Below, one piece after another: positions 7,015 to 64,000 of a stretch of DNA of 64,000 nt. Origin of the DNA: an uncultured Bacteroidaceae bacterium (lineage in GTDB: Bacteria; Bacteroidota; Bacteroidia; Bacteroidales; Bacteroidaceae); NCBI GenBank assembly GCA_905233465.1, contig CAJOEI010000005.1, positions 62,001 through 126,000 on the forward strand. Direction: 5' to 3'. Position 1 is the stretch's first letter. Every line of letters begins with the position of its first letter. Below the pieces are notes generated by a model, which was not told where the DNA came from, did not search any database, and worked only from the letters and a program-made list of their open reading frames with translations. The translations under genes were made by a program, and so were the position numbers.

Positions 7015-7924
7015 GTTTTTCCGCTATACGCAACTTCGCACTTCTGCTGCGTGGATTCCTCGCCACCTCTTCCGCCGTGGGCACCACAGCCTTGCCTATC
7101 GGTCTCAACGGCGCATGGCTGTTGCCAAAGACATCACGCTCCATCTCACCACTATCGCTACCACAGCGCATCACACGTTTCACAATCCTGTCTTCCAGCG
7201 AATGATAGCTCAACACCACAAGACGACCACCAGGAGCCAGCAAATCCACAGCACTCATCAGCATATCCCTCAGAGCATCCATCTCATGGTTCACCTCGAT
7301 ACGCAAAGCCTGAAACATACGAGCCAAATCCTTCTTGTCATGTAGGTCAACAATGCGGGCCAACTCGCCCGTCGTACGTATCGCTCCACGTGCACGTGCC
7401 TTGACGATTGCATCTGCTATTCTGCGAGCACCTTTTAGCTCACCGTACAACATCAACACATCACACAATGCATCTACGTCATAGCTGTTAACCACATCAG
7501 CAGCGGTCATCCCACCAGCACGGTTCATACGCATGTCCAACGTCGCGTCCCAACGGAAACTAAAGCCACGTTCACCAGCATCCAAATGATGACCAGACAC
7601 ACCCAAGTCCGCAATCAGACCATCGATGCTATCAACACCATAGTAGCGCATCCAGTTTCCCAGATAACGGAAGTTGGAGTGAACCATTGTCCATTGTCCA
7701 TTGTCCATTGTCCACTGTCCATTATCCATTTGACATTTCGCTATGGCATCTCTGTCCTGGTCAAAGCTGAAGAGACGACCACCAGAACCCAGACGGCGCA
7801 GAATCTCACGACTGTGACCGCCACCACCAAGCGTTACGTCAACATACACACCACTCCCATGAACATTCAAACCGTCCACCGACGGCTCCAGTAGCACCGG
7901 AGTGTGGTATACGCACGTTTCCAT
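6989..7924 (-). CDS. rsmH: 16S rRNA m4C1402 methyltransferase
   Basis: YHTPVLLEPSVDGL, DVTLGGGGHSREIL, LADLGVSGHHLD, RLVVLSYHSLEDRIVK. Confidence 0.95.
   Translation of the reverse strand: METCVYHTPVLLEPSVDGLNVHGSGVYVDVTLGGGGHSREILRRLGSGGRLFSFDQDRDAIAKCQMDNGQWTMDNGQWTMVHSNFRYLGNWMRYYGVDSIDGLIADLGVSGHHLDAGERGFSFRWDATLDMRMNRAGGMTAADVVNSYDVDALCDVLMLYGELKGARRIADAIVKARARGAIRTTGELARIVDLHDKKDLARMFQALRIEVNHEMDALRDMLMSAVDLLAPGGRLVVLSYHSLEDRIVKRVMRCGSDSGEMERDVFGNSHAPLRPIGKAVVPTAEEVARNPRSRSAKLRIAEKRGCAAVES
7685..7732 (-). repeat. 7-bp tandem repeat (CATTGTC) inside rsmH, encoding MDNGQWTMDNGQWTM
   Basis: Direct reading: cattgtccattgtccattgtccattgtccactgtccattatcc. Confidence 0.85.
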
Positions 7925-7928
7925 GCCG

Positions 7929-7936
7929 CAAAGTTA
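7929..7936 (-). promoter_or_regulatory. Putative -7 element TAACTTTG for rsmH, 4 nt from ATG
   Basis: Minus strand reads TATAACTTTGCGGC-ATG; matches Bacteroidetes TAnnTTTG consensus. Confidence 0.6.
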
Positions 7937-8325
7937 TACCTTTTATCCGAAACGCACACAATAAAATAAATAAAATTTTTTAAAAAAGTTCACAACGCCC
8001 TGATTTAACGTGTTTTTAGGCGTTAAAGTTACACTTTAACTCAAAATACGCACCTTTATTGTCTCGTCACAATAATTCCACGTTACAACTCCATATTTTC
8101 GTGCGTCGTGCGTGCTGCGTCTTTTGTGTTTTTCTGAGTGTTTTCTCGCGCGTGTGCGCGCATCACAGCTGTTTTTCCAGAAAAGAACCTACATGCCTAC
8201 ACAAGCGTCATCTAACATGCTGTTAATGTGGAAGATAGAACCATGTAGGTTCGCATGTAGGTTATGACGGTGCTTACATCCGATAGGGTGTCATATGAAA
8301 ATTTGGTGGTTTCGGGAAAAAACAC

Positions 8326-8333
8326 TAACTTTG
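8326..8333 (+). promoter_or_regulatory. Putative -7 element TAACTTTG reading into structured intergenic DNA
   Basis: AAATTTGGTGG...CACTAACTTTGCACTAAG on + strand, with an upstream TTTG near the -33 position. Confidence 0.5.
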
Positions 8334-8345
8334 CACTAAGAAACG

Positions 8346-8495
8346 ATGAAGAGCAATAGTGACATGAACTGCACAATCCACACAACACATTCACCAAAAC
8401 AAGTGATGTCGACAGTATCACCTAATGAGACGGGGTCGTATCACCAGGTGAGACGCATGAGTATCTCCGGTGATACTCGCAAGTCTCACCGGTGA
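8346..8495 (+). CDS. Possible 49-aa small ORF (MKSNSDMNCTIHTTHSPKQVMSTVSPNETGSYHQVRRMSISGDTRKSHR)
   Basis: ATG 12 nt after a TAnnTTTG box; below the ORF-track length cutoff; 3' half lies in the palindrome array. Confidence 0.25.
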   Translation: MKSNSDMNCTIHTTHSPKQVMSTVSPNETGSYHQVRRMSISGDTRKSHR

Positions 8496-8520
8496 TACCT
8501 GCGCGTCTCACCGGTGAGAC
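8415..8520. repeat. Array of five mini-palindromes GT(A/C)TC-ACC-N-GGTGA(T/G)AC, starts 8415, 8438, 8461, 8483, 8505 (22-23 bp period)
   Basis: Direct reading; 16-17 bp palindromic units with 6-nt non-conserved spacers. Confidence 0.85.
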
Positions 8521-8550
8521 AACTCCTAACGTCCGGATGTTTTGCTCCTG

Positions 8551-8577
8551 ACATTCGGGGCAAAACGCCCCGAATGT
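8551..8577. repeat. Perfect 11-bp inverted repeat ACATTCGGGGC-AAAAC-GCCCCGAATGT
   Basis: Direct reading; perfect stem. Confidence 0.85.
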
Positions 8578-8645
8578 TAATATGTTGGTTTTTAGACGAC
8601 TATGTGCTTGAATTGTGTATCCTTGGGCTTGCTAAGCCTGATGGA

Positions 8646-9800
8646 TCAATATGTATGGTCGGATGTTTTTATTTCTTCTGGTGTAATCTTCTTCTTGTCG
8701 AGTGAATGCCATGCGTAGGCGATGTATGTGAGTACGAATGGTATGAGTAGTGACACGTATGCCATCGTGCGGAGTGTGAATTCGCTGGATGAGGCGTTTG
8801 TGATTGTTAGTGAGGACTGTAGGTCGGCGTTTGATGGATAGAAGGCTGTGTTGTTGAGGCCTGCAAGGAGCAACAACATCCACACTACGAGCACTGTACC
8901 CACGCCAGCAGGCCATATTCCGCCGATGTAGTTCTTGCTGCGTATGGTGCGCCAGAAAGCATACAGAACGAGTACCACGCCTATCAGCAACACTATTGCT
9001 AAGGGCCATAATGTCAACAGGTTGTGCAGGTATTTATACGGCTCAATGCTTATCACGCCGGTAACGGGATTGGCAGCATAGCCATCCTTGAGGAGCAGGT
9101 GTACAAGATAGCTCACGAAGAGAATCAGGAAGGCCACAGCCTGCCCAACGAGACGGACGCTGGCGCGGCTTCGGATGTCCTCGTTTTCGACGTTGTTCAT
9201 GAAGTAGAGCAGACCCAAACAACGAGTGAGAAACACGACAGCAAAACCCAGTACGAGCACCCATGGCGAGAGTAAAGCATCTAATCCGTGGGTGGCATTG
9301 GCCCATGTTGATACAGCCATATCCAACGGTTCATCTGGCGAGAGCATGTTGCCCTTGGCAATGAGGAAGTTGCTGCCTTCGAAGAATGTGGCTACCGCTC
9401 CACCAATGAGCAGTGGACCGAGTAATCCGTTGAGCAAGAGGCAGAAGCGGAATGGACGTGCACCGAGCAGGTTGCCTTGTTTATGCTGGAACTCGTAGCT
9501 GACGGCTTGCACAACAAATGTGACGAGGATAAGCATCCATAGCCAGTATGCACTGCCGAAGCTGGTGCTATAAAATAGTGGAAATGCTGCAAAGGCTGCG
9601 CCGCCGAATGTGACGAGTGTGGTGAAAGTGAGCTCCCACTTGCGGCCGGTGGAGTTGATGAGTGCACGGCGTTGGTCGTCATCAGCTCCGAGTGTGTATA
9701 TTAGGGTGTTGCCGCCCTGAACAAACATCATGAACACGAGCAGGCCACCAAGCAGGCTGACAAGCAGCCACCAGTATTGTTGAAGAAAGACGTAAGACAT
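8646..9800 (-). CDS. cydB: Cytochrome bd ubiquinol oxidase subunit II
   Basis: Multi-TM CydB-like sequence directly downstream of cydA. Confidence 0.93.
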   Translation of the reverse strand: MSYVFLQQYWWLLVSLLGGLLVFMMFVQGGNTLIYTLGADDDQRRALINSTGRKWELTFTTLVTFGGAAFAAFPLFYSTSFGSAYWLWMLILVTFVVQAVSYEFQHKQGNLLGARPFRFCLLLNGLLGPLLIGGAVATFFEGSNFLIAKGNMLSPDEPLDMAVSTWANATHGLDALLSPWVLVLGFAVVFLTRCLGLLYFMNNVENEDIRSRASVRLVGQAVAFLILFVSYLVHLLLKDGYAANPVTGVISIEPYKYLHNLLTLWPLAIVLLIGVVLVLYAFWRTIRSKNYIGGIWPAGVGTVLVVWMLLLLAGLNNTAFYPSNADLQSSLTITNASSSEFTLRTMAYVSLLIPFVLTYIAYAWHSLDKKKITPEEIKTSDHTY

Positions 9801-50353: not shown

Positions 50354-51094
50354 CTAATCAAACTCGCCGGTATGCGTTCCGGCAGCTATGGGAATGATGG
50401 TGCCGCTGACAGGGTCAGCGGTGAGGTTTATGGTGTATGCCTTTGCGGCTTCAAGGGTCATGGAGCCAGGGACAGAGAGATCGGTTACGTGGCTGCCGGC
50501 GAGGGCGGCGGCAGAGATGGTGTAGTTTGTTGCGCCAGCAGGGAAATACACCGTCTTAGATGTCTCGTTTGAAGCGAAGGTGACGGTGCGCGTTCCTATT
50601 GTTAGCGTCGGTGCTCCATAGAGCGCCGTGAATGAATTGTTAAGGGTGAATGTCACTCGGGAATTCTTTGGTGCTCCGAGTGCAATGGCGATGTTGGCGG
50701 TTGTGCCTGGATTGAGTGTGAACTCAGCAGACTGGCCGCTATAGTAGGGCATGCCAAGACCTGTTGTAGAGGCCTCGAGGTTCTCTGCCAGCAAATCGTA
50801 TGTACCAGCTGCGGCATAGCCGACAAGGGTGGTGCCCGTAGGCATCATGGTTATTTCCTGTTTCTGCGATTCGTCGCCACCAGGCAGGAGATAGAACTTA
50901 TACCCTGTGAAATCAGTCAGGGTGGCGCGGGTCTCGGCATCTACATAGATGTCGTTGCCGCCTATAGAGAGCACGATGCAGCCCATCTCCTCAGTCGGTG
51001 TTACAGGACTGAGGTCTTCTTGCTGACAGCCATAGAACATGGCGATGAATGCCAGCATAAGGAAATGTAAGATGTGGCGTGCAGATGCGTGCAT
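50354..51094 (-). CDS. DUF4493-like lipoprotein
   Basis: Lipobox MFYGC-QQED; MGCIVLSIGGNDIYVDAETRATL N-terminal module. Confidence 0.7.
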   Translation of the reverse strand: MHASARHILHFLMLAFIAMFYGCQQEDLSPVTPTEEMGCIVLSIGGNDIYVDAETRATLTDFTGYKFYLLPGGDESQKQEITMMPTGTTLVGYAAAGTYDLLAENLEASTTGLGMPYYSGQSAEFTLNPGTTANIAIALGAPKNSRVTFTLNNSFTALYGAPTLTIGTRTVTFASNETSKTVYFPAGATNYTISAAALAGSHVTDLSVPGSMTLEAAKAYTINLTADPVSGTIIPIAAGTHTGEFD

Positions 51095-51187: not shown

Positions 51188-51967
51188 TTATACTTCGTTA
51201 CCTGTAGCAGCATCAATGGTGATTGTGCTGGTTTCGCCAGTTGTGTATTCATCATCATAGGTGATGGTGACACTTATAGTACCATTGCTGTTGCTTGCGA
51301 TGGTGAGAACGCTGGCAGAACCTGCGCCGCCGAGAGTGAATGTTTTAGCAGCAGAGGTCTTTGTGATGCCGTTAATAGTGTAAGTAATGGTATAAGTCAG
51401 CTCTGCAGATGCGGCAAAGAAGGCATCGTTATCGATTGTGCTATTCGCCTTGTCAAAGGTTAGCGTGCGCGGAGCGGAGACGTTGACAGTAAGAGCTGTT
51501 CCGCTGAAGCCAGCAGAGGCAATAGAGAACTTAGCATTCTTAGCCATGCCGCACTCAATGGCGACGTTGGTGGTGTTACCGGCAGTCACGGCCTGGTTTG
51601 ACGCATTGCCCTCGTAATAGGCAGCACCAAAGCCGTCATTAGCCGTGAGCCAATCATCATCATCAGCGAAATTAGAAACTGCCACGTTGTAACTACCGGC
51701 TGCCAATGGCGTAGTACCTAAGGTCGTGCCAATAAGGGCCTTTGCAGCAACTGTTCCGAATACGGGGTCGCCATCTCCATTTGTCACGACAGCATACCAC
51801 TCTGCTACGTTGGCATTCTGTGTGGCACGTGTTGCGATGGCATCATCGATTGTCACGCCGAGTTTGATATACCCCTTGTTCTTGTCGAGGTATCCGTCTT
51901 CGCTTGTGCATGCATTGAAACTTACAAATGCTGCGACAGCCAGTGCGATAGTAAATAACTTTTTCAT
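51188..51967 (-). CDS. DUF4493-like lipoprotein
   Basis: Lipobox SFNAC-TSED; GYIKLGVTIDDAIATRATQNA module. Confidence 0.72.
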   Translation of the reverse strand: MKKLFTIALAVAAFVSFNACTSEDGYLDKNKGYIKLGVTIDDAIATRATQNANVAEWYAVVTNGDGDPVFGTVAAKALIGTTLGTTPLAAGSYNVAVSNFADDDDWLTANDGFGAAYYEGNASNQAVTAGNTTNVAIECGMAKNAKFSIASAGFSGTALTVNVSAPRTLTFDKANSTIDNDAFFAASAELTYTITYTINGITKTSAAKTFTLGGAGSASVLTIASNSNGTISVTITYDDEYTTGETSTITIDAATGNEV

Positions 51968-52018: not shown

Positions 52019-52897
52019 TTATTCGAGTGTTATTTCTTCTGTGGATCCTTCGGTGAAGTGGTCATCATAGGTGATGGCCATGAGGGAGATGTTGCCCGTG
52101 GATGGTTGGGGGGCGTTGAGCTTCACTTCGAGGCGTGTTATCTTGCCTGCTTGTAGGGTGAGTGTGCGTGTGAGGCGCACTGTGCCGTCCCACCCTGCAG
52201 AGGCGGTGATGGTGAGTGCTACGTCGGCAGTGAGCTGGCCCACCCCCGACCCCTCCCCAAGGGAGGGGAGGGAAGTGTTGTAGTATGCTACGGCGGGCCC
52301 CACCCCCGACCCCTCCCCTGTTAAGGAGGGGAGTGTTGTGTTGGCGGGGAAAGCGTTGTCGGCGTTGAACTTCAATGCACGTGTGTCGGCTGTGGTGACG
52401 GCATACTCTGTGAAGTAGCTTGTAAAGCTGTCGTCGAAGGTGACGCACAGTCCGGCGTTGGCCATCGTGCACGGCACTGTGACATGTGTTGTCTGTCCCT
52501 CGGTGATGGCGAATGGAGCGGAGCTGCCCGCGTAGCGTCGCGCACCCCAACCGCTGTTCAGGCTCTCAGCATCAGCTGCGCTGATATTCTCTGCACTGAC
52601 GACATATCCCGTGCCAAGGGGCTGTGTGCGGTCGGCAAGGGTGATGTCGGCAAATGGTATGTTCTCCCATATAGTCTCTGTGGCAGAGTGGAGAGTGACC
52701 CTGTATGCGGCAGCCTCAGCGTCGGTGAGCTGGCGTGGCGCACGGGTCACGATGTCTGCCGTGAGGCTATCTGTGGCCAGCTCAAAAGCAAAAGTACCAC
52801 GCCCAGCAGAGGGACTGGGTTGTTCTCCAATGCATGCTGTGAGTAGTATGGCACAGAGAGCAGTGAGTACGTAGCTTCGTAGCGCGAGGTTTGACAT
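52019..52897 (-). CDS. DUF4493-like lipoprotein with two in-frame GC-rich repeat insertions
   Basis: Start set at MSNLALRSYVLTALCAILLTAC; contains LPSLTGEGSGVG and LPSLGEGSGVG. Confidence 0.72.
   Translation of the reverse strand: MSNLALRSYVLTALCAILLTACIGEQPSPSAGRGTFAFELATDSLTADIVTRAPRQLTDAEAAAYRVTLHSATETIWENIPFADITLADRTQPLGTGYVVSAENISAADAESLNSGWGARRYAGSSAPFAITEGQTTHVTVPCTMANAGLCVTFDDSFTSYFTEYAVTTADTRALKFNADNAFPANTTLPSLTGEGSGVGPAVAYYNTSLPSLGEGSGVGQLTADVALTITASAGWDGTVRLTRTLTLQAGKITRLEVKLNAPQPSTGNISLMAITYDDHFTEGSTEEITLE
52237..52275 (-). repeat. GC-rich palindromic repeat, copy 1 (CCCACCCCCGACCCCTCCCC-AA-GGGAGGGG)
   Basis: Direct reading within the 52019-52897 CDS. Confidence 0.85.
52296..52333 (-). 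repeat. GC-rich palindromic repeat, copy 2 (CCCACCCCCGACCCCTCCCCTGTTAAGGAGGGGAG)
   Basis: Direct reading within the same CDS. Confidence 0.85.
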
Positions 52898-52901
52898 ATT
52901 G

Positions 52902-55487
52902 TTAGTTGGAGTACTGGAAGAAGAGTTTATAGACCTTTGAACATGTGGCACCTGAGCCATAGCTGCCTTCGCAGGTTACATAGGTAACATTGGCAGACGT
53001 GGTGAAGATTTCGACTCCGGTGTTGTGAACGTCGTTGTTATATTTGCTTTCGGTACATGTCACGATAGTCTGGTCTCCTGCCTTGACATTGGCTTCAGTG
53101 TTGACAGCGGCACGGTGTAGGACGATGTCATAGTCAAGTGACATCCTTATTCCTGCCGGAATGTTGAACCATGAGCTGTTCTTGATGCGGTGGGGCTGGC
53201 TCAGAGAATAGTTGCCAAGTCGTACGTGGTCAGAGTTGAAGTTTGTTGTTCCTTTGTCGTTGGCCCATCCTGTCGCCTCTGTTGGAGGTGTGAAGTTTGC
53301 TGGAAGGCCTGTGATGCGGAACTGCTTGCTGGCACTGACCGTCTCACCGCCGAAGTTGGCTGTAACAGAGAATGTATATAACGAGCCGCTGACTGGTACG
53401 TTGGTATAGTCTGCCCACGAGGGAGAATTTGTGGACTCGGTTGTAGTGGCGCTCTGTCCGTTACATGAGCGTGTGAAAGTGCGTGTGTAGTTGGTGTTGG
53501 TCATCAGCGATGGAGCTACGCTGATATGTGCCGAAGGTGCATAGAATGTAAGTCGATCGCAGTCGTTCGCGGCTGTGACATCGCCAGCCTCATACTTGGT
53601 GTGTGCGCTGTAACCATCAACGGTGAGTGTCAGTGTTGGAGCTGGGACGGTGAACGTTGTTGTAGCTACGCGGCTGCTGCCGTTGGAGGCGGTGAAAGTG
53701 TAGCTGACGGTATAGCTGCCTTTGGGCAGATATGGCCATGTAGTGTCGGTATGGTCAGAGGTCAGGTCGCCTGTGCCAGAGACGGTACGCACCGCCGTTC
53801 CAGATGAGTTCTTTATTGTTGCACTCCACACACGGCCTTCGATGGGAGCGTCAGTGAGTGTCACGCTTGTGCCCTGCAGTACGCCGCCATCATAGACATG
53901 TGTGGCTGTGACGGAAGGCGTGGATATGAGGTCTATGGTTCCGAGGTCATAGATGTGGCTCGCAGTGCCGCCGAAGGTGGTCGTCGAGGTCTGGGTATAG
54001 GTGCGTCCGTCGCAAGTGTATGTGAGCGTGAAACCAGCGAGCTGCACCGGTGCGGAAGCGATGTAGTATGTTCCGGCCTCAAAGGTATTAATTCCCTGTG
54101 GCGGCAGGATGGTGATGGTGGTGCTCTCTGTGGATGCTATTGTCGCAGTTGGATGTTGACCGCTGTAGTCAATGCCTATCCTTCCGGCGATGGGTGTGGT
54201 GGCAGTGAGGAGTATGCTGCGTATCTTGTCCTCGGCGTATGCTGGTATGTCGAAGCGCAACAGCTGTGTGGTGTTGTAGAAAGTGAGCATTGCCGGACTG
54301 CCATCGAGATTGCGCGAGCCCTTGGCCACGGAGATGTTGAGAGCTGATGCTATATTGCCTGCCACGGCGTACTGCGTCGTTGGCAAGGTGGCAGCAAGTG
54401 TGGCAGCCGATGTTGCAGCCTCAGCTGCAAGCCTGTAAGGGTATATAGCTGCGAAGTTCTGCGTGCGGGCTGTCACCTGTCCAGCGAAGCGTGCCTGATT
54501 GCCATTGACGTCGGTAGCAGTGAAATTGCGCCGTGTGGACTGGAAGTCGTACACAGCCACAACATCGCCACTATCCCAGTTGACAATGGTGCCGTCCGTG
54601 CCGAGTGTGGCGCGTGTGTCTATCACAGCATCATCCAGCGTAAAGCTCTCATGCACAGCATTGAACTCTGTCGTGCCGTCTTCTACAGTTATGTCGCTGT
54701 CGGTGATATTGATGACATCCGTAACGAACACGTCCTGTTCATCAATGGTGATGTTGAAGTCGAAATAACTGATATCGTATTTGAAGTTAAGGCTGCTAAC
54801 CTTGGCCTGCTTGATGTCGATGGTGCCTTCTTTGACTATCGTCTTAGGCCCAATGGCGGTGATGGTGTACGTAATCTGACGGTTAGTGCCATCATCGTCA
54901 AGGTTGAAGTATGCCGTGCGTCCAGCTGTCGCGGCGTTGTAAACGATAGTGCGGTCGCCATCGTGAATAGTGACATAGTAGTCGGAGGTGAAATACTCGG
55001 CCATGCTCTGGTCGAAGGTAATCTCCACTGCGGCATTGACAACGGAACAGCCCACATTGACAGATGTTGTCTGACCGGCTTTGATGGCAAATGATCCTGA
55101 TAGGCCTGCAAAGCGCTTCTGTCCCCAGCCATCGTTCAAGGTGATGGCTTCCTGCTTGGTGCAATTCTCGGCCATAACACGATAGCCATAGCCTGCTGGC
55201 AGACTGGTGTTGAGACTGCCAAGACGTGTGGCGGAACGCACGATGTCACTACCTTTGTATATGGTTACGAGGAAGTTATTGGCTTCTTCCTGTGTGATGA
55301 CAGTGGTGGTGGCACGCGTGGGTGTCTGACCTGTGAAGATGAGCTCGAAGTTACCGAGGCTGTCAGCAGGCACATCAACTGGAGCATCGACGGGCATGCT
55401 ATCGGAGCTGCAGGCCACAAAGAGCATTACCACGACCAGAGCGCAGCAGACGCTGAATGCACGTATTATGGAGTGGATGCGCTTCAT
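52902..55487 (-). CDS. DUF4493-like lipoprotein fused to a fimbrillin-like domain and a C-terminal beta module
   Basis: Lipobox LFVAC-SSDS; fimbrillin-like IVNWDSGDVVAVYDFQSTRRNFTATDVNGNQARFAGQV...NFAAIYPY; C-terminal module shared with 56206-58026. Confidence 0.72.
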   Translation of the reverse strand: MKRIHSIIRAFSVCCALVVVMLFVACSSDSMPVDAPVDVPADSLGNFELIFTGQTPTRATTTVITQEEANNFLVTIYKGSDIVRSATRLGSLNTSLPAGYGYRVMAENCTKQEAITLNDGWGQKRFAGLSGSFAIKAGQTTSVNVGCSVVNAAVEITFDQSMAEYFTSDYYVTIHDGDRTIVYNAATAGRTAYFNLDDDGTNRQITYTITAIGPKTIVKEGTIDIKQAKVSSLNFKYDISYFDFNITIDEQDVFVTDVINITDSDITVEDGTTEFNAVHESFTLDDAVIDTRATLGTDGTIVNWDSGDVVAVYDFQSTRRNFTATDVNGNQARFAGQVTARTQNFAAIYPYRLAAEAATSAATLAATLPTTQYAVAGNIASALNISVAKGSRNLDGSPAMLTFYNTTQLLRFDIPAYAEDKIRSILLTATTPIAGRIGIDYSGQHPTATIASTESTTITILPPQGINTFEAGTYYIASAPVQLAGFTLTYTCDGRTYTQTSTTTFGGTASHIYDLGTIDLISTPSVTATHVYDGGVLQGTSVTLTDAPIEGRVWSATIKNSSGTAVRTVSGTGDLTSDHTDTTWPYLPKGSYTVSYTFTASNGSSRVATTTFTVPAPTLTLTVDGYSAHTKYEAGDVTAANDCDRLTFYAPSAHISVAPSLMTNTNYTRTFTRSCNGQSATTTESTNSPSWADYTNVPVSGSLYTFSVTANFGGETVSASKQFRITGLPANFTPPTEATGWANDKGTTNFNSDHVRLGNYSLSQPHRIKNSSWFNIPAGIRMSLDYDIVLHRAAVNTEANVKAGDQTIVTCTESKYNNDVHNTGVEIFTTSANVTYVTCEGSYGSGATCSKVYKLFFQYSN

Positions 55488-56203
55488 AGACTGATATCAG
55501 TGTTTTCGGTCTCCATATCATCGGTGATGATGATGTCCACGCCGCCGGAAGTGGCATTGGAGTCATAGCTGTAGCTGACGGTGAACACCTTGCCAGCTTC
55601 GATGTCTGGAAAGTCGATTGCAGAATGTGAGTGTGTGACGTTGTCGGTGTTGGTGGCGCGCAGTGCATAGCTGAAACCGCCTTCGGCAACGGCGAAATAT
55701 GCCTTTTCACCCTCGTTGATGGTCACGGTGCGTGTGCCGCTATGCAGGGTGAAGGTGTATGAACTGAAGAGTTCGTGGAAGTGCTCCGGTAGGGCGAGAC
55801 TGACGGCATAGTTAGTCATCGGTACGTCAAGACGCATACGGAACACCATATCATTTTCCATTGAGAACGTTGTCTCAGCATAATAGCATGCTGTGCCTTT
55901 CCCGCTATTGGCCGTGGGCCATGAGGTCTGGTTGTCTGTGTATGCTCGCAGAACAAAGTTGCCTGGGGCGAGTACAATCTTTGCGGGTACGGTGCCTGCA
56001 GCATAATGGTTGAGCAGTGTGCCTTCGTCATCAAGGATATCCACGCAGAGGTCATCGTCCACAGCGCGCGTAGCAACGGCTGGATGGCCGGCACGAGACA
56101 GCTCCAACTCGAGCACACCCGTGGCCAAGGTCATGTCGTCCTGCTGCTGACAACCTGTCAACATGACTATACACATTATTATATATATATATAGGCGACG
56201 CAT
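55484..56203 (-). CDS. DUF4493-like lipoprotein
   Basis: Start set at MRRLYIYIIMCIVMLTGC; stop overlaps next start (ATGA). Confidence 0.7.
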   Translation of the reverse strand: MRRLYIYIIMCIVMLTGCQQQDDMTLATGVLELELSRAGHPAVATRAVDDDLCVDILDDEGTLLNHYAAGTVPAKIVLAPGNFVLRAYTDNQTSWPTANSGKGTACYYAETTFSMENDMVFRMRLDVPMTNYAVSLALPEHFHELFSSYTFTLHSGTRTVTINEGEKAYFAVAEGGFSYALRATNTDNVTHSHSAIDFPDIEAGKVFTVSYSYDSNATSGGVDIIITDDMETENTDISL

Positions 56204-56205
56204 GA

Positions 56206-58026
56206 TCAATGGTTAGCGTATTTTAGTGTGAAGGAGTAGATATGTGAGCACGTCTGTCCAGCGCCATAGTCGTTGTAGCAATGAATATTTGTGGCGTATG
56301 CATTATCATCATGGAACGTGTCTGTGGTGCCGGAATAGAGGTGATCTGTATCACGGAAAGGTGTTCCCGCCTCTTCTTGTTTGAGAATTTCTGTATTTCC
56401 TACCTTAATTGAGAGATATGTACCTATGGTGAAAGTATGCACATTGATGCTGTAGTCGGCACAGAAATATGTAGATGGCGGTATGCAGACGGAAGTGTTA
56501 GTCTGGATGTACTGACTTCCTGTGCTGAGGTGACCAAGGCGGACATCATTGTCAAACCAGTCTACGCCGCCACTGGATTCCCATTCATCGTGACTCTTCA
56601 GATTAAGAGAGTATGGCAGACCCGTAATGATAAGGTCGCGTTGGGCGCTGGCCGTGACTCCGTCGAAGGTGGCTTCAGCACGCAGCACATGGGCCTCACG
56701 TTGTACAGCCTGATTGGTCTGGTTGCCAGGGTTGCAGATATTGCTATTAGCAGGGATGGATAGCGATGTCCCGTCGTATGTGCAGGTGAAGGAGTGGCTG
56801 TAGTTGCTGTTCTGCAGCAGTGTCGGGCTGACGTTGAACTTTGCAGATGGCTCGTAGACCGTGACTCGTTCGCAAGCATTTGCAGCGTCTATGTCGCCTT
56901 CGAGGTACTTGGAATATGAGGTGTAGCCAGTGGTGGTGACGCTGATAGTGGGTGCTGTGACGCTGAAGTCACGGCTGCTGGCAAAGGTGGCCTGATCGTT
57001 GGCATCCAAGAGATAGTAGCTGGCTTTGTATTGCCCTTGCGGCAGATATGGCCATGTGCTGTTGTTGGTGTAGTCCGACTGTAGCGGTCCTGTACCCTCC
57101 ACGGCACGCACTGTCGTACCGGCGGCATTGGTGATGACAGCCCGCCACTTCATGCCCGGATAGCTCTCGGTGATGATGAGGTTTGTGCCGACAAGGTTGC
57201 CAATTTTGTCATACTGATGCATGGGCAACACCATAGCCACAGGCAACCATGAGAGAGGTATTGTCTCGTCGAGTGTGATTTCTGTCATTTCCACTTTGCT
57301 GATGGCGACGGTCATTGCGCTCTCCGGGTCAGGCAAAGTGAGGGTGACTTGTGCGTGGTCGGCGGCTGATAGCGTGGAGGGCATGTCGGTCGATGTGAGT
57401 GTCGTTGACACCTCGCGGTCGTTCTCCATTTTCAACTTGCCCCAGAAACGCAGCGTCACCTGACTGCCGGCACGTACATATACGCTCTTGGCAGGAGCTT
57501 CTTTTGTGATGGGGATGGAGAAGTTGCCAACATTCACGTACAAAGCATAGTCACTGTAGAAGCGGTCGAAGCGCTGCTGCTCGACAGCGTCGGATCCGAA
57601 GCGCGCCGAAATGAGAGCATTGGCCACACGTGCCGTGAGGTTCACTGTTGTGGTCTGATCAGCATCCACGGTGGCTGTTTGCTCAGCAAGATAATATGGC
57701 TTGTCCATCCCTATCACGGGATTCTCACCGTATGTGGCGCTGATGGCGTACTGTCCAGTCGGCAACGTGAAGGGCTCATCAGTGAACGTACCGTCGTAGA
57801 CATCACGTCCCGCTGAGTTGGTTACAGTGAGATGGAAGTCAGCTGCAGTTGGCACGCCGAGGTCGGCAGGTATGGAACGCGTGGCCGTATAGACATTAGG
57901 CATCGCCAACTGCAGCTGGCCCATGCCGCCAGCTGCGGGAACATCCACGTCTGCACTGCAAGCAGCAAATGTTGCAGCCAGCAATGCAAACAGTGTGATA
58001 TGTCCTATGACGTTCCTAAGTCTCAT
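56206..58026 (-). CDS. DUF4493-like lipoprotein with C-terminal beta module
   Basis: Lipobox TFAAC-SADVD; GQLQLAMPNVYTATRSI; C-terminal module paralogous to 52902-55487. Confidence 0.72.
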   Translation of the reverse strand: MRLRNVIGHITLFALLAATFAACSADVDVPAAGGMGQLQLAMPNVYTATRSIPADLGVPTAADFHLTVTNSAGRDVYDGTFTDEPFTLPTGQYAISATYGENPVIGMDKPYYLAEQTATVDADQTTTVNLTARVANALISARFGSDAVEQQRFDRFYSDYALYVNVGNFSIPITKEAPAKSVYVRAGSQVTLRFWGKLKMENDREVSTTLTSTDMPSTLSAADHAQVTLTLPDPESAMTVAISKVEMTEITLDETIPLSWLPVAMVLPMHQYDKIGNLVGTNLIITESYPGMKWRAVITNAAGTTVRAVEGTGPLQSDYTNNSTWPYLPQGQYKASYYLLDANDQATFASSRDFSVTAPTISVTTTGYTSYSKYLEGDIDAANACERVTVYEPSAKFNVSPTLLQNSNYSHSFTCTYDGTSLSIPANSNICNPGNQTNQAVQREAHVLRAEATFDGVTASAQRDLIITGLPYSLNLKSHDEWESSGGVDWFDNDVRLGHLSTGSQYIQTNTSVCIPPSTYFCADYSINVHTFTIGTYLSIKVGNTEILKQEEAGTPFRDTDHLYSGTTDTFHDDNAYATNIHCYNDYGAGQTCSHIYSFTLKYANH

Positions 58027-58032
58027 TAGCCT

Positions 58033-59763
58033 TTACTCATAAAGCAGTTCCATATTGTCAATCTGCAGCAGGCTCTCCTCGCCGCCGGTGAAGTAGTCAC
58101 CGTATTTGGACGATGACGCCACGACGATGATTGTTGAGGGCTGACGGTCGCGCACGCGATAGTTGATATCAACGGTCTGCGTTGTCCATGTGCTGATATC
58201 CTTGCCGCACGAATACTGTCCAAAGGCAATCAAATGACTGTCGTTCATGTCCATGAGGTGCAGGGCCGACGGTCGTGTGCGGATGAGATAGCGGCACTGT
58301 GTACCCTTGTAGTCAACGGGCTCCCAGTCACCAAGTGCTACGTAGATGTTGCATGTATCGGGTTGTCCCTTGAGCCCTTCATATAGTTGGCGGGTGATGT
58401 AATTGCCGTAGGCTTCCTTCCACTCACCGCCTGTGCGGGTTATAGTGCTGGTGCGATACTTGAAGTCGAAGCGCAGCTTTGTGGGGAATGACGTGAACGG
58501 ACGTCCGAAGTTGAGCACACCATTGGTGCCATCGGTCTCAAGATATTCGCCTGTGAAGATATTGCCTGCAGCGAACTTGATGACGATGTACTTCGACTGC
58601 AAGTTGGCAAAACGCCGTCCGCCTTCGTCAACGTATGTGCTGTTGCTGGCACCAACGGTGGTGGCACCGTGGTTGCCTGTGTCCCAATAGCTTTCTGCTC
58701 CCTCGGCCCACGGGCAATAGAGTGCACGTGTGCCGCTGCCCTCGATATGCCAGTCATCAAAGCTGCCGTTCGGCAACTGCTGTGGTGCCACGGTGGTGAA
58801 GGTCTGCACACTTGTGGTGGCCTCGCCTGCTGTGACTTGGTACTCGTATGTACCGCCTGCCACAAGGCCCGTGAGTTCGGCTACATAACGTGTGTTGTTC
58901 ACGGCAATCTGTCCTGTGGGCAGCACAGTCCACTCAGCATCACCCTGACGGCGATACTCCACTTTGGGTGCTACGCCCGAGGCACATTGGCCGCTGATGG
59001 TGGCGGTGACACAGCGTGCAAAGGCCGTCGCCGTGGCTTGCTGCTGGGCTTCGGTGTGGTAGACGAAGACCCTCCAGGCTGCCGTGCTGCGCCCATTGCC
59101 CGCGGTGATGGTGAAGGTGCGCATCTCGCTGAAGTCGTAGGTTGGTGTCTCCGTGGGGTCAGGAGCCACGACACAGTGCTGTCCTGCCGGACGGAACTTC
59201 TGCACAGCCACGGCACTTAGGTCTTGGTTAGCAGCAACATAGACGATTACATTGTGGTTGACATTGTCTATGATAGCATCACCCACCTGACCTGCCATCT
59301 GCACTTCGGGGATTATGACTTGCTTGACACGTATGCGCCATGTATAGTCCTGATATGTCGTCAAGGTGAATTTGGCCTCACCCTGCGTGAAGTCTACATG
59401 TGTGTTGTCTGTCGAAGCCGGACGTTCGAAACCCTGCGTAGGGAACTCTGACGGGCGTAGGCAGTTGTCAGCGGGCTGTATGGTGGCGTCATTGCTCACT
59501 TCCATGCGAATGATGCGCACGGCAGCGAGGTTGACAGTGTCGCTGACAAAGACATCAATGGTGGCATCGTTCTTGTTGATAGTTGCAGCGGCAGCCTCGG
59601 TATCGGTCTCGTTGCACTGGCCAGACACCTGGAAGGCGGTGATTGCAGCCTCGACAATGGGATATGGTATGTCATCCTTGATGGCGCACGAAGTGATGCT
59701 GCCCGCCGTCACAGCGAGAAGCATGACATTGCTGATGGTGCGTATTGTGGATTTTATTGTCAT
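58033..59763 (-). CDS. PCMD-like (putative carbohydrate metabolism domain) lipoprotein
   Basis: Lipobox SITSC-AIKDD; FN3-like segment then NGSFDDWHIEG...YWDTGNHG...LQSKYIVIKFAAGNIFTGEY. Confidence 0.78.
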   Translation of the reverse strand: MTIKSTIRTISNVMLLAVTAGSITSCAIKDDIPYPIVEAAITAFQVSGQCNETDTEAAAATINKNDATIDVFVSDTVNLAAVRIIRMEVSNDATIQPADNCLRPSEFPTQGFERPASTDNTHVDFTQGEAKFTLTTYQDYTWRIRVKQVIIPEVQMAGQVGDAIIDNVNHNVIVYVAANQDLSAVAVQKFRPAGQHCVVAPDPTETPTYDFSEMRTFTITAGNGRSTAAWRVFVYHTEAQQQATATAFARCVTATISGQCASGVAPKVEYRRQGDAEWTVLPTGQIAVNNTRYVAELTGLVAGGTYEYQVTAGEATTSVQTFTTVAPQQLPNGSFDDWHIEGSGTRALYCPWAEGAESYWDTGNHGATTVGASNSTYVDEGGRRFANLQSKYIVIKFAAGNIFTGEYLETDGTNGVLNFGRPFTSFPTKLRFDFKYRTSTITRTGGEWKEAYGNYITRQLYEGLKGQPDTCNIYVALGDWEPVDYKGTQCRYLIRTRPSALHLMDMNDSHLIAFGQYSCGKDISTWTTQTVDINYRVRDRQPSTIIVVASSSKYGDYFTGGEESLLQIDNMELLYE

Positions 59764-59784: not shown

Positions 59785-60963
59785 TTATAGGTAGAATGTC
59801 AGGCCGAGGTTTATACTCAGGAGGTTGAACTTGAAATTGGCACCTCCGCTCTGGCTCTTGCCAGACTCGATGCGGTTGGTGTGCTGATCCTGCCATCGGT
59901 ACTTCAGACCCATGATGCCTATGCTGGCCTCTGCTGCGAGGAAGTCAGTCACGAAGGCTGCCATACCCGGGCAGAAGCTGAGTTTGATGGTGTGGGTGTG
60001 GCCGTATGAGCCGTCGTAGTCAGCACCGCTGCCGGTACTGTTCTTGCCTGTGGTGTAGGCGTATGAACCACGTATCTCTCCGAAGAAGCCAAACATCTTG
60101 CTGCGACCCAGCGGCATGTATGTACGCAGGAACATTGCGCCTTCATGGGTGTGTTCGAGGTAGTAGAGGTCTTCGAGCGAGATGTTGAAATCCTCACCCA
60201 GATTGAGGTCGAAGGAACCCAAGTAGAAGTAGTTGCGGCTGTAGCTGTAGCGTCCGCCAAGAGCCAGGTTGTTGGCCACAAAGTAACCGAAGTAGGGACT
60301 GGCAGAGAAGGTATGTCCTTCGATGTTCATATCCTTGAGCACAAGGAGGTTGATGTTATCGGTATCCCACTCCTGATAGTTGAACGTAGCACCCAGCAAC
60401 CATTGCTTCTTGGGCACGAAGACAGCCTTCAGCATCTCACGGTCCACACGCTGTATGTGTCGTTTCTTCTGCGAGCGGTCCCATAACTGCTCAGCACGGG
60501 TTCGTGGCTCAAAAATGCTATTGCTTCCAGAATAACCCTGCATCTGCAACGCCCGCATGACACCTCGCTGCACAGCCTGCTCGATGACGCTGTCTGGGAC
60601 AGAACCTGTGTAGACCATCTCACGCTGGTCGAGCACTGCGGCGGACAGTGTGTCATACTTTGTCACATAGGCAGTGTCTTTCTTCTCGACAATCACGGTG
60701 TCGCGCTTGGTGACCACCATGGTGTCGCGGCGTGCCACGACCATCTGTCCGGGCTGCAGCTCAGCACCTCGCGAGACAAGTATGCCGGCATCCTGCATCA
60801 CCATGCGTTGCTGCGGTTGCAGCTGCGACTGCGAGCGCGCTGGCTGGCGTCCCTGGGTGACCTGCCGCGACGAGCGACGCATCACTTTGGACTGCGAGAT
60901 GGCTGCTGCCGGCATCAGAACCAGCAGCAGCCATAACAGGTATCTATTTGGTTGCGAAATCAT
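59785..60963 (-). CDS. Outer membrane beta-barrel protein with repetitive periplasmic N-terminal region
   Basis: Signal peptide, RRDTMVVTKRDTVIVEKKDTAYVTKYDT repeat, then alternating beta-strand pattern ending LGLTFYL. Confidence 0.78.
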   Translation of the reverse strand: MISQPNRYLLWLLLVLMPAAAISQSKVMRRSSRQVTQGRQPARSQSQLQPQQRMVMQDAGILVSRGAELQPGQMVVARRDTMVVTKRDTVIVEKKDTAYVTKYDTLSAAVLDQREMVYTGSVPDSVIEQAVQRGVMRALQMQGYSGSNSIFEPRTRAEQLWDRSQKKRHIQRVDREMLKAVFVPKKQWLLGATFNYQEWDTDNINLLVLKDMNIEGHTFSASPYFGYFVANNLALGGRYSYSRNYFYLGSFDLNLGEDFNISLEDLYYLEHTHEGAMFLRTYMPLGRSKMFGFFGEIRGSYAYTTGKNSTGSGADYDGSYGHTHTIKLSFCPGMAAFVTDFLAAEASIGIMGLKYRWQDQHTNRIESGKSQSGGANFKFNLLSINLGLTFYL

Positions 60964-60968
60964 TACAT

Positions 60969-62750
60969 TTACTGAACGGTTGGAGTGTCGCCGTAAACCA
61001 TTTCGAAGTCGTCGAGGTAGAGGACAGAAGAGTCTGAGCCATAGAAGTAATCACCATACCTCGAGCTGGAGCAGACGATGATGAGATGTGTCGGCACCTT
61101 GGTGAGGCTATGATACTCAAGCGGAATATCGAATTCCTTCCATTGTCCGTTGGAGTTCACGCACTGGCTTGCGGGCAGTGTGCCATAGGCCACAACGCGC
61201 GGATCGGTATTCCAGTTGGGGAACTCATCCATCTTGGTGTTGTCAATCTGAATCACCTCTGTGGTGAGCACGCAATAGATCTGGCATTGGTCATCTTCGC
61301 CCTTGGCTGGTGCACCACTTGGCTGTGTACCACGGTTAATAGATCCAGGAGCATACTGGAGGTAGCCATGCAGGCTTGTGGGACGACCGTTGAATGGAAC
61401 ACCCCAGTTGAGGACTGCGCCCCTGGTACCTACGAGATGGTCAAACTGTCCGGTATACAAGCTGGCAGCAGCAAACTTGATAATGACATACATGGACTGC
61501 AGCTTGGCAGCATACGTGCCGCTGCGTACAGGTGATGTCGTGCTTGTGGTGACGTTGTAGCTATCGCCCATGCTGGCTGAACCAGGATTGGAGCTGTCCC
61601 AATATGTAGTACCTTGAGCATTCGGGTACCAGATGCTGCCGTCCTTCCACCAGTTCTCGAAGCCGCCGTTGTACAGTGCGGGTTCGCTGCCTGTGGTGAA
61701 GTTGACTTCATTGCTGTTCACGGCTGCATCTGTAGTCGTGTAGACGAAGCGGTAGGTATAGGCTGTCTGCGGTGTCAGACCAGTGAGCTTATAGCTGTAG
61801 TTGTCGCCGCTGACGGTGAGCTGGTCATTAGCCACGGTTGTCCAGTCAGTAGCGTTCTGCTGCTTCCACTGCAGTGTGACGCTTGCAGGATCAAACTCCG
61901 AAGTCTTGGCTGTAACCATGCCCGTGAGGTTAGCAAAGTGTCCCCATGCGCTGATGTTGTTGGCCTGCAGTGCAATGCTGCTCTTGCGAGGCACTTCAAT
62001 AGTGTATGTGTAGGACTGCGTAGCATCGTCAACCTTAACAGTTACGCCACCCATGCTACCTGCATCAGCAATCCTATAAGTGATGATGTAGTGGTCGCGT
62101 GCCTTGACGTTCTCGATGGTATTATCCTGCAGGTGGGTTGCACCGTTGCTCTTGCTGGTGACATGCACCATGAGCGTGAGGTTGCCAACAGGGAAGTAGG
62201 CCGAACCCACTGTGCTACCCATAGTAAATGTACGCGGAGCAACACCTTCCATGGCAGACTCCACAATAGTAGTAGCCTTGGAGAAGTATGTACGGAAGCT
62301 CTCATCGTAGTTCACTGTCACCTTGACGTTGGCCTGTGTCAGCGTGAGGCTGGCTGTAGTGAGCTCCTTGGCACGCACTGTCACGGTGGTGAAGCCTGAG
62401 TAGAATGGCGTTCCAAAGCCAGAATCACTGCCATCCCAGTTCGAGGAGTGAGCATCAATGGTGTAATTACCGGGCTGCAGGATTATTGTTCCCTGAAAAT
62501 CGCTGGCATTGGCAAAGTCATCGGTCTGCATGAGGACAGTACCCTGTGCATTACGGATTTCCACATGCAGCTTCTTGGCGTTGTAACCGTTTGGTACACC
62601 AGTTACTGTACGCGTGTTTGTTGAAACAAGAGTGTTTATGTCAAGCTTCAGATAGCCCTGTTCCTCGACCTGGTCGATGTCGGTGCTGCTGCACGATGTT
62701 ACAAGGAGAGCAGCAACGAAGGCTGTAAGAATAGAAAATATCTTTTTCAT
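60969..62750 (-). CDS. DUF4493-like plus PCMD-like lipoprotein
   Basis: Lipobox LVTSC-SSTDIDQ; GYLKLDINTLVSTNTRTV; C-terminal NGGFENWW...YWDSSNPG...LQSMYVIIKFAAASLYTGQF. Confidence 0.8.
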   Translation of the reverse strand: MKKIFSILTAFVAALLVTSCSSTDIDQVEEQGYLKLDINTLVSTNTRTVTGVPNGYNAKKLHVEIRNAQGTVLMQTDDFANASDFQGTIILQPGNYTIDAHSSNWDGSDSGFGTPFYSGFTTVTVRAKELTTASLTLTQANVKVTVNYDESFRTYFSKATTIVESAMEGVAPRTFTMGSTVGSAYFPVGNLTLMVHVTSKSNGATHLQDNTIENVKARDHYIITYRIADAGSMGGVTVKVDDATQSYTYTIEVPRKSSIALQANNISAWGHFANLTGMVTAKTSEFDPASVTLQWKQQNATDWTTVANDQLTVSGDNYSYKLTGLTPQTAYTYRFVYTTTDAAVNSNEVNFTTGSEPALYNGGFENWWKDGSIWYPNAQGTTYWDSSNPGSASMGDSYNVTTSTTSPVRSGTYAAKLQSMYVIIKFAAASLYTGQFDHLVGTRGAVLNWGVPFNGRPTSLHGYLQYAPGSINRGTQPSGAPAKGEDDQCQIYCVLTTEVIQIDNTKMDEFPNWNTDPRVVAYGTLPASQCVNSNGQWKEFDIPLEYHSLTKVPTHLIIVCSSSRYGDYFYGSDSSVLYLDDFEMVYGDTPTVQ

Positions 62751-62770: not shown

Positions 62771-64000
62771 TTATTCGACAGTGAGGGTTAGGGTGCCGTT
62801 CTTCTTCGTGCCGTTCATGTCTTCAACTACCATGTTGAAGGTGTGCTGACCGGAGAGGAAGCCGAGCAGTCCGAAGAAATTACCAATTGGGAATGTGTAG
62901 TCGATATCACCTGCGCTGGGCACGGAGAGCGGCTGGTTGAGGTCGTTGAAAAGCTGAACCACGCTCTGGTTGTCTACGATCTCGGCTCCGTTGATGAAGT
63001 CGACACCATAGTTGGTGTTCAGGCCACCGAGAGACTCAATCATCTCGTCGCTGGTGCTGACGATGCTGACCTTGATGCTCTTGATGCCGTTGTCACACTT
63101 GATGTATGTGTCGCCGAGGCTCTTGTCTGTGCCAGCGTTGACGGTCATGTTCTGCGGCAGGTTGAGAGTAATGCTGGTATCGTCACCACCTGCACTGGGA
63201 TCATCACCACCTGAGGGATCGTCGCCACCGCCAGGTGTCAGTGTGCCGTTGTCGCCTACTTCAAGGCTTACGGGCTGTGTGGTCTCATCGAAGGTCACTG
63301 TGGCAGTAATGGTAATGCCAGTGACGTGACCGCTGGTGCTCTCCACAGGAGTGAAGTTGATGACGATGCCATCGCCGCCAGTGAAGTTTTGGCTGTCGTT
63401 GTCATAAGACTCAGCAGCCACAGTCTTTGTCAGCACGTTGCGGGCACTCACTGTAGAACCGTCCTGAGTGGTACCACGGAAGTTGAGGGTCAGCTGTAAG
63501 ACGTTCTCCTCAAAGAGCCAGTAGACAGGATTAGGAGTAGTGCCGTCGTTGTTTGTGAAGGAGAGAGCAATGTTCGACTCGCTACCGTCATCAAGGGTAA
63601 TCTCCCATGCGGTGAATACCTCGAGGAAGTCGGCGTCGTAGGAAACAGTAATCTTGGAGTTCTGCATCTTGCACACCACCTCGACATTGGTGGTGACATC
63701 CTTCGTGATCTCCATCGCGGTAGAACCTTTATAATAAGGCGTAGTCATCTTCTTCTGGATAACGCCGGGGGTATGGCTCTCTACGGTGTAGTTGCCAACG
63801 GAAAGGAGGTAGCTCGAAGGCACTTCGCTCACGGTGTTCCAACTGACGACCTGCTGTCCGCCGTCATTGTATACCACAACGGGATAGTTATCAACCTCAG
63901 TCACGGCACGCGTTGCTGCCGGTTCGAGCTGAGTGACGCTGAGTGCCATGCGTCCACTGCCTTCAGCGAACTTGGCATTCTGGTCAGCATCGAGATTCTC
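62771..64000 (-). CDS. DUF4493-like protein, 5' end beyond the window
   Basis: Frame stays open upstream of 63949 (ENLDADQNAKFAEGSGRMALSVTQLEPAATRAV); linker GGGDDPSGGDDPSAGGDD. Confidence 0.7.
   Translation of the reverse strand, partial: ENLDADQNAKFAEGSGRMALSVTQLEPAATRAVTEVDNYPVVVYNDGGQQVVSWNTVSEVPSSYLLSVGNYTVESHTPGVIQKKMTTPYYKGSTAMEITKDVTTNVEVVCKMQNSKITVSYDADFLEVFTAWEITLDDGSESNIALSFTNNDGTTPNPVYWLFEENVLQLTLNFRGTTQDGSTVSARNVLTKTVAAESYDNDSQNFTGGDGIVINFTPVESTSGHVTGITITATVTFDETTQPVSLEVGDNGTLTPGGGDDPSGGDDPSAGGDDTSITLNLPQNMTVNAGTDKSLGDTYIKCDNGIKSIKVSIVSTSDEMIESLGGLNTNYGVDFINGAEIVDNQSVVQLFNDLNQPLSVPSAGDIDYTFPIGNFFGLLGFLSGQHTFNMVVEDMNGTKKNGTLTLTVE

Follow-up and report, generated by a model that had tools for sequence, protein, structure and literature searches.

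The gene at positions 52902 to 55487 on the minus strand of the window (by which we mean the whole stretch of 64,000 nucleotides that was analysed) encodes a lipoprotein of 861 amino acids, in which a DUF4493 domain, an internal fimbrillin-like domain and a separate C-terminal module with a highly variable distal part follow one another in a single chain. We put the probability at roughly 0.55 that this protein is a surface lipoprotein unconnected with pili and part of a conserved complex, its DUF4493 half serving as anchor, its fimbrillin-like domain as coupling module and its variable distal part as binding head.

The open reading frame runs from ATG to stop and has orthologues in fused form in five other genomes and in split form in 19. 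At the N-terminus of the product lie a signal peptide and a lipobox (ending in MLFVAC, with Cys26; positions 55410-55487), from which export as a lipoprotein is predicted. Residues 46-252 (54732-55352) match the DUF4493 family (PF14900) with 98 bits (E 9.5e-28, cut-off 27). As the original prediction had it, this N-terminal module is common to the neighbouring genes, several of which also match PF14900, and the N-terminal half of the protein is thus a member of the DUF4493 lipoproteins, from the rest of which it differs in that it carries a fimbrillin domain. A linker (residues 254-291, 54615-54728) leads into the fimbrillin-like domain of the Mfa_like_1 type (approximately residues 272-526, 53910-54674), and some 325 residues follow. 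The latter had also been correctly recognised as a separate module: they are beta-rich and resemble the C-terminal module of the 606-residue neighbour described below (34% identity over 334 columns). The module consists of a conserved, Ig-like proximal part (residues 535-618, 53634-53885; delimited by conservation and by the model) and a distal part (residues 619-861, 52905-53633).

The middle domain has the two-sandwich fold of the fimbrillins, and the similarity is far beyond chance. The fimbrillin-like motifs quoted in the original prediction are present at residues 274-524. Neither the full-length window protein nor its middle segment gives a Pfam match to Mfa_like_1 (PF13149); of the 22 aligned orthologous segments, made up of the window copy and 21 relatives with 42-64% identity, three do match this family, the best of them, locus L016 with 47% identity to the segment of the window protein, at 31.9 bits where 27 is the cut-off. 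In a Pfam search with full-length L016 the fimbrillin domain was missed, and the isolated segment was needed for its detection. The profile of the middle segment aligns with 14 bona fide Mfa_like_1 segments with a probability of 90% (P 1.6e-6) as compared to 0.2-0.5% in control profile comparisons, among them those of the C-terminal module (0.3%) and of DUF4493 (0.2%) with the same Mfa_like_1 segments. At the level of profiles, DUF4493 itself was likewise rejected as a disguised relative of the fimbrillins or of Mfa2.

Structure prediction leads to the same result. Neither the single sequence nor profiles retrieved a fimbrillin in searches of PDB sequences, so that only the fold search was informative, and since a Foldseek search with a model of the two modules yielded mostly generic beta-sandwich proteins (Ig-like, complement), the domain was modelled in isolation. 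Though built, like the other models, on a shallow alignment (22-26 sequences), the AlphaFold model of the isolated domain reached a pLDDT of 86.9 and a pTM of 0.83. Adhesins of the FimA superfamily from Bacteroidales take up the first ten places among its PDB matches, headed by 3ufi (E 7e-9, probability 1.00), with TM-scores that are moderate at about 0.5 at most. The fimbrillin fold that had been proposed for this segment is hence borne out by profile and model alike. The domain, in which 35 positions are invariant across the 22 orthologues, shares its fold with Mfa_like_1 and with the FimA-superfamily structures BACOVA_04980 (3ufi), BACUNI_00621 (4k4k), BF1858 (3t2l) and BT0320 (4dgu), and shares profile similarity with these adhesins by way of its orthologues. 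Different from them, it is internal, with DUF4493 before it and the C-terminal module behind it, and the window copy stays below the Pfam threshold and lacks the terminal Trp.

The gene is part of an operon of about 11 syntenic genes for DUF4493, PCMD and barrel-like proteins, all of those with coordinates given here lying on the minus strand. In order, they encode a DUF4493 protein of 392 amino acids (62771-63949), a DUF4493-PCMD protein of 593 (60969-62750), an outer-membrane-barrel-like protein of 392 (59785-60963), a PCMD-domain lipoprotein of 576 (58033-59763), a protein of 606 in which DUF4493 is joined directly to the C-terminal module without a fimbrillin domain (56206-58026), a DUF4493 lipoprotein of 241 (55484-56209) whose gene overlaps the fusion gene by 4 nucleotides, the fusion protein, three more DUF4493 proteins and a protein of 1444 amino acids. 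The three DUF4493 proteins are a lipoprotein with an open reading frame of 313 codons (52019-52960, the true start probably lying near 52897), a lipoprotein of 259 amino acids (51188-51967) and a protein of 246 (50354-51094). Assignments are based on Pfam and synteny, together with alignment for the 606-residue protein and with the open reading frames for the 241- and 313-residue ones. The barrel-like protein, which was named for the appearance of its sequence, is a constant member of the operon and has no Pfam or NCBIfam match. Both PCMD proteins match solved structures (4het, 4jrl, 3hbz) that were deposited under the label of putative glycoside hydrolase; a literature search for the name PCMD retrieved no paper. 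The gene order is conserved in 19 genomes; gaps are few, and several of them fall at contig ends. All nine DUF4493 matches above the cut-off in this genome lie within the operon. In other genomes the operon also occurs without the fimbrillin gene.

In 19 relatives, 14 of the genus and five more (G451, G342, G572, G573, G578), the same modules are found in split form, as two adjacent lipoprotein genes of which the first encodes DUF4493 and the second the fimbrillin domain with the C-terminal module (fimbrillin-C). The upstream product is a DUF4493 lipoprotein of about 300 amino acids that is 36-52% identical to the N-terminal part of the window protein, and the downstream product has a signal peptide and lipobox of its own. 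At the 14 loci examined the two genes overlap by 8-14 nucleotides or are separated by 12-27. Split orthologues such as those of G064, G001 and G102 thus agree with the window gene in modules, module order and place in the operon and differ from it in having two genes and two signal peptides instead of one of each. The fused form is present in six genomes including that of the window, which rules out a chance fusion or frame error in a single assembly. In a tree of the fimbrillin domain five of the six fused copies cluster (support 85/99) and the sixth, from G032, sits elsewhere on a long branch; a single origin of the fusion is not rejected by a tree test (AU p 0.177). Since these genes are mostly kept apart in relatives, their fusion suggests a joint function of the two parts. 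Two further genomes (G083, L184 at 7858-9717; G103, L185) have in the corresponding slot of the operon a DUF4493 domain joined straight to the C-terminal module, which may represent the state before arrival of the fimbrillin cassette or after its loss, and in five others (G079, G117, G065, G042, G107) the whole cassette is absent. The genomes compared are mostly draft assemblies, several of them titled rumen MAGs. One of them, G094, has two more copies of the split pair on contigs other than that of the main operon (C63 and C146; L028, L030).

The strongest hint of a physical partnership between DUF4493 and fimbrillin-C comes from the way in which the separately encoded DUF4493 protein ends. 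A C-terminal tail of 42-47 residues, of which 24-40% are acidic, is present in all 19 loci in which a fimbrillin gene follows this protein, whereas in all five loci that have no fimbrillin gene it ends in only 12-13 residues (Fisher p 2.4e-5, with the loci taken as independent of ancestry). These five loci do not reflect assembly gaps because the next gene of the operon follows DUF4493 on the same contig. By alignment and tail length, the linker of the fused proteins corresponds to this acidic tail, and within it the sequence TTEFNAVH (residues 272-279, 54651-54674) is modelled as the first strand of the fimbrillin domain (strand 3-10 of model m1554d4b5e495). Two features somewhat weaken the case: mean pairwise identity is 41% in the tail as opposed to 51% in the fimbrillin domain, and the last residues of the tail partly overlap the next start codon in many loci, though the D-x-x-Y ending is kept also in loci without such an overlap. 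A role of the split-form tail as donor strand is not favoured because of its polar and acidic character, in contrast to the fused linker, which has become hydrophobic at the strand.

A second pattern emerges from the C-terminal module. Its proximal part is 49-67% identical to that of the window protein in all orthologues, and its distal part 63-85% identical in nine genomes and only about 20-35% in most others, independently of how similar the fimbrillin domains are. For instance, the loci L008 and L009 share 81% identity in the fimbrillin domain as against 24% in the distal part, and one head type (B) is common to a fused copy (L004) and to two split ones (L008 and L010) with 66-69% identity among the three, the fused copy sharing 67-69% with the split ones. 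The distal part hence comes in unrelated allele types that are swapped separately from the remainder of the gene, a pattern that fits exchange of a recognition head and points to selection on surface recognition.

How might these parts act together? We propose that the lipid and the DUF4493 domain hold the protein at the cell surface, that the domain of fimbrillin fold acts as a spacer that couples this anchor half to the head, and that the C-terminal beta domains, the last 240 residues of which occur in exchangeable alleles, form a ligand-binding head, probably an adhesin for glycans or proteins. In the split relatives, the acidic tail of the DUF4493 protein would dock on the fimbrillin-C protein encoded just downstream; in the window gene, where the two have been fused and the second signal peptide lost, the former tail would have become the linker and the first fimbrillin strand. 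What the computation itself shows is the order of the modules, the fold, the operon, the split and fused forms, the association of tail and fimbrillin gene and the swapping of heads; location at the surface, physical pairing, docking through the tail and binding of a ligand are inferred. The likeness of a PCMD neighbour to solved structures labelled as putative glycoside hydrolases is in support of a surface complex. On the other hand, the Arg kept in the first loop of the fimbrillin domain (see below) recalls the pilins and would be superfluous in a pure spacer, and the head has no family assignment, the PDB matches of the two-module model being mostly generic. A tentative extension, which we judge to be well short of an even chance, is that a fimbrillin-fold protein was recruited from pilus biology as a plug-in of a DUF4493/PCMD surface complex, and that the acidic tail is a specific docking element evolving together with the fimbrillin gene. 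In the fused form the tail would then have turned into the first strand, and a contact between subunits into one within the chain.

It is rather doubtful that the fimbrillin domain is instead a neutral spacer derived from domain shuffling, and the fusion a chance loss of stop codon and signal peptide that has no functional meaning. Such an explanation would be in line with the many relatives in which the domain is missing from the slot, be it by direct joining of its neighbours (G083 and G103) or by absence of the cassette in the five genomes named above. However, it would not readily account for the co-occurrence of tail and fimbrillin gene in 24 of 24 loci checked, nor for the invariant positions of the domain and the fixed order of the genes.

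But is the protein a component of a pilus? Cleavable type V pilins consist of a first strand, a flexible loop with the Arg that is cut, and two sandwiches, and gingipain-type processing cuts them in the loop between the first two strands (PMC5789003). In the window protein, R292 (54612-54614) is invariant in 22 of 22 orthologues and located after the first strand in a loop (residues 287-297) with a pLDDT below 50 in the model of the isolated domain. The Arg cleavage site that was to be looked for thus has a candidate, and it sits where cleavable type V pilins are cut. A link to type V pilus biology, as originally proposed, nonetheless finds no support in the gene neighbourhood: among the ten operon proteins scanned none belongs to a recognised pilus family, and the Mfa2 and Mfa_like_1 matches of the same genome are on other contigs. 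Moreover, fimbrillin domains also open many other lipoproteins of the family, which have unrelated C-termini, so that a pilus cannot be deduced from the fold by itself.

Among pilus functions, that of a tip adhesin is possible, though we regard it as improbable. The protein would be cut at R292, lose its first strand, receive a donor strand from a shaft pilin encoded elsewhere, and display its C-terminal module at the pilus tip. With the type V tip proteins Mfa3-5 of Porphyromonas gingivalis it has in common the two-sandwich fimbrillin fold, an additional C-terminal part (the tip protein Mfa3 likewise bears a C-terminal extension) and, as a candidate, the Arg site in the loop after the first strand, where cleaved shaft and tip pilins also have theirs (PMC5789003). 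In addition, the genome encodes C25 and C11 peptidases besides the Mfa_like_1 and Mfa2 proteins mentioned. It differs from the tip proteins in that there is no pilus locus, in that DUF4493 stands in front, and in that its gene lies in a conserved operon alongside those for PCMD proteins; the unrelated C-termini of the other fimbrillin-domain lipoproteins weigh against a tip function too. If the fused form were cut at R292, moreover, head and DUF4493 would come apart, an outcome difficult to square with selection for the fusion.

The original prediction of a tip or anchor subunit accordingly survives as regards the tip, as a possibility, and is unlikely to hold as regards the anchor. A pilus anchor or shaft subunit is what a lipoprotein with a fimbrillin fold might at first suggest, but it is very improbable: shaft pilins end in a long C-terminal strand (PMC5789003), whereas here about 325 residues come after the domain, which makes a shaft role unlikely; an anchor role is unlikely in view of the retained Arg loop and the lack of similarity between the domain and the Mfa2 profile (0.5%); and the Trp near the end that is described for many shaft and for anchor pilins, and is lacking in Mfa4 (PMC5789003), has no counterpart near the end of this domain, W304 being the sole Trp in residues 276-526.

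The proposed surface complex is of interest in several respects. A full-text literature search found no paper mentioning DUF4493 and hence no described function for it; for one DUF4493 protein, a probable physical partner can now be read from the split and fused forms and the probable contact from the acidic tail, and both are directly testable. Furthermore, the window protein shows that a fimbrillin fold can occur away from any recognised pilus locus.

Finally, a GC-rich palindromic element (...GGGGAGGGGTCGGGGGTGGG) was noticed in two in-frame copies on the minus strand at positions 52230-52335, inside the DUF4493 gene at 52019-52960 that follows the fusion gene. Its 20-base core has 53 matches in the genome at up to two mismatches, as compared to none for the reversed control, and the element thus looks like a dispersed repeat able to insert into coding sequence.
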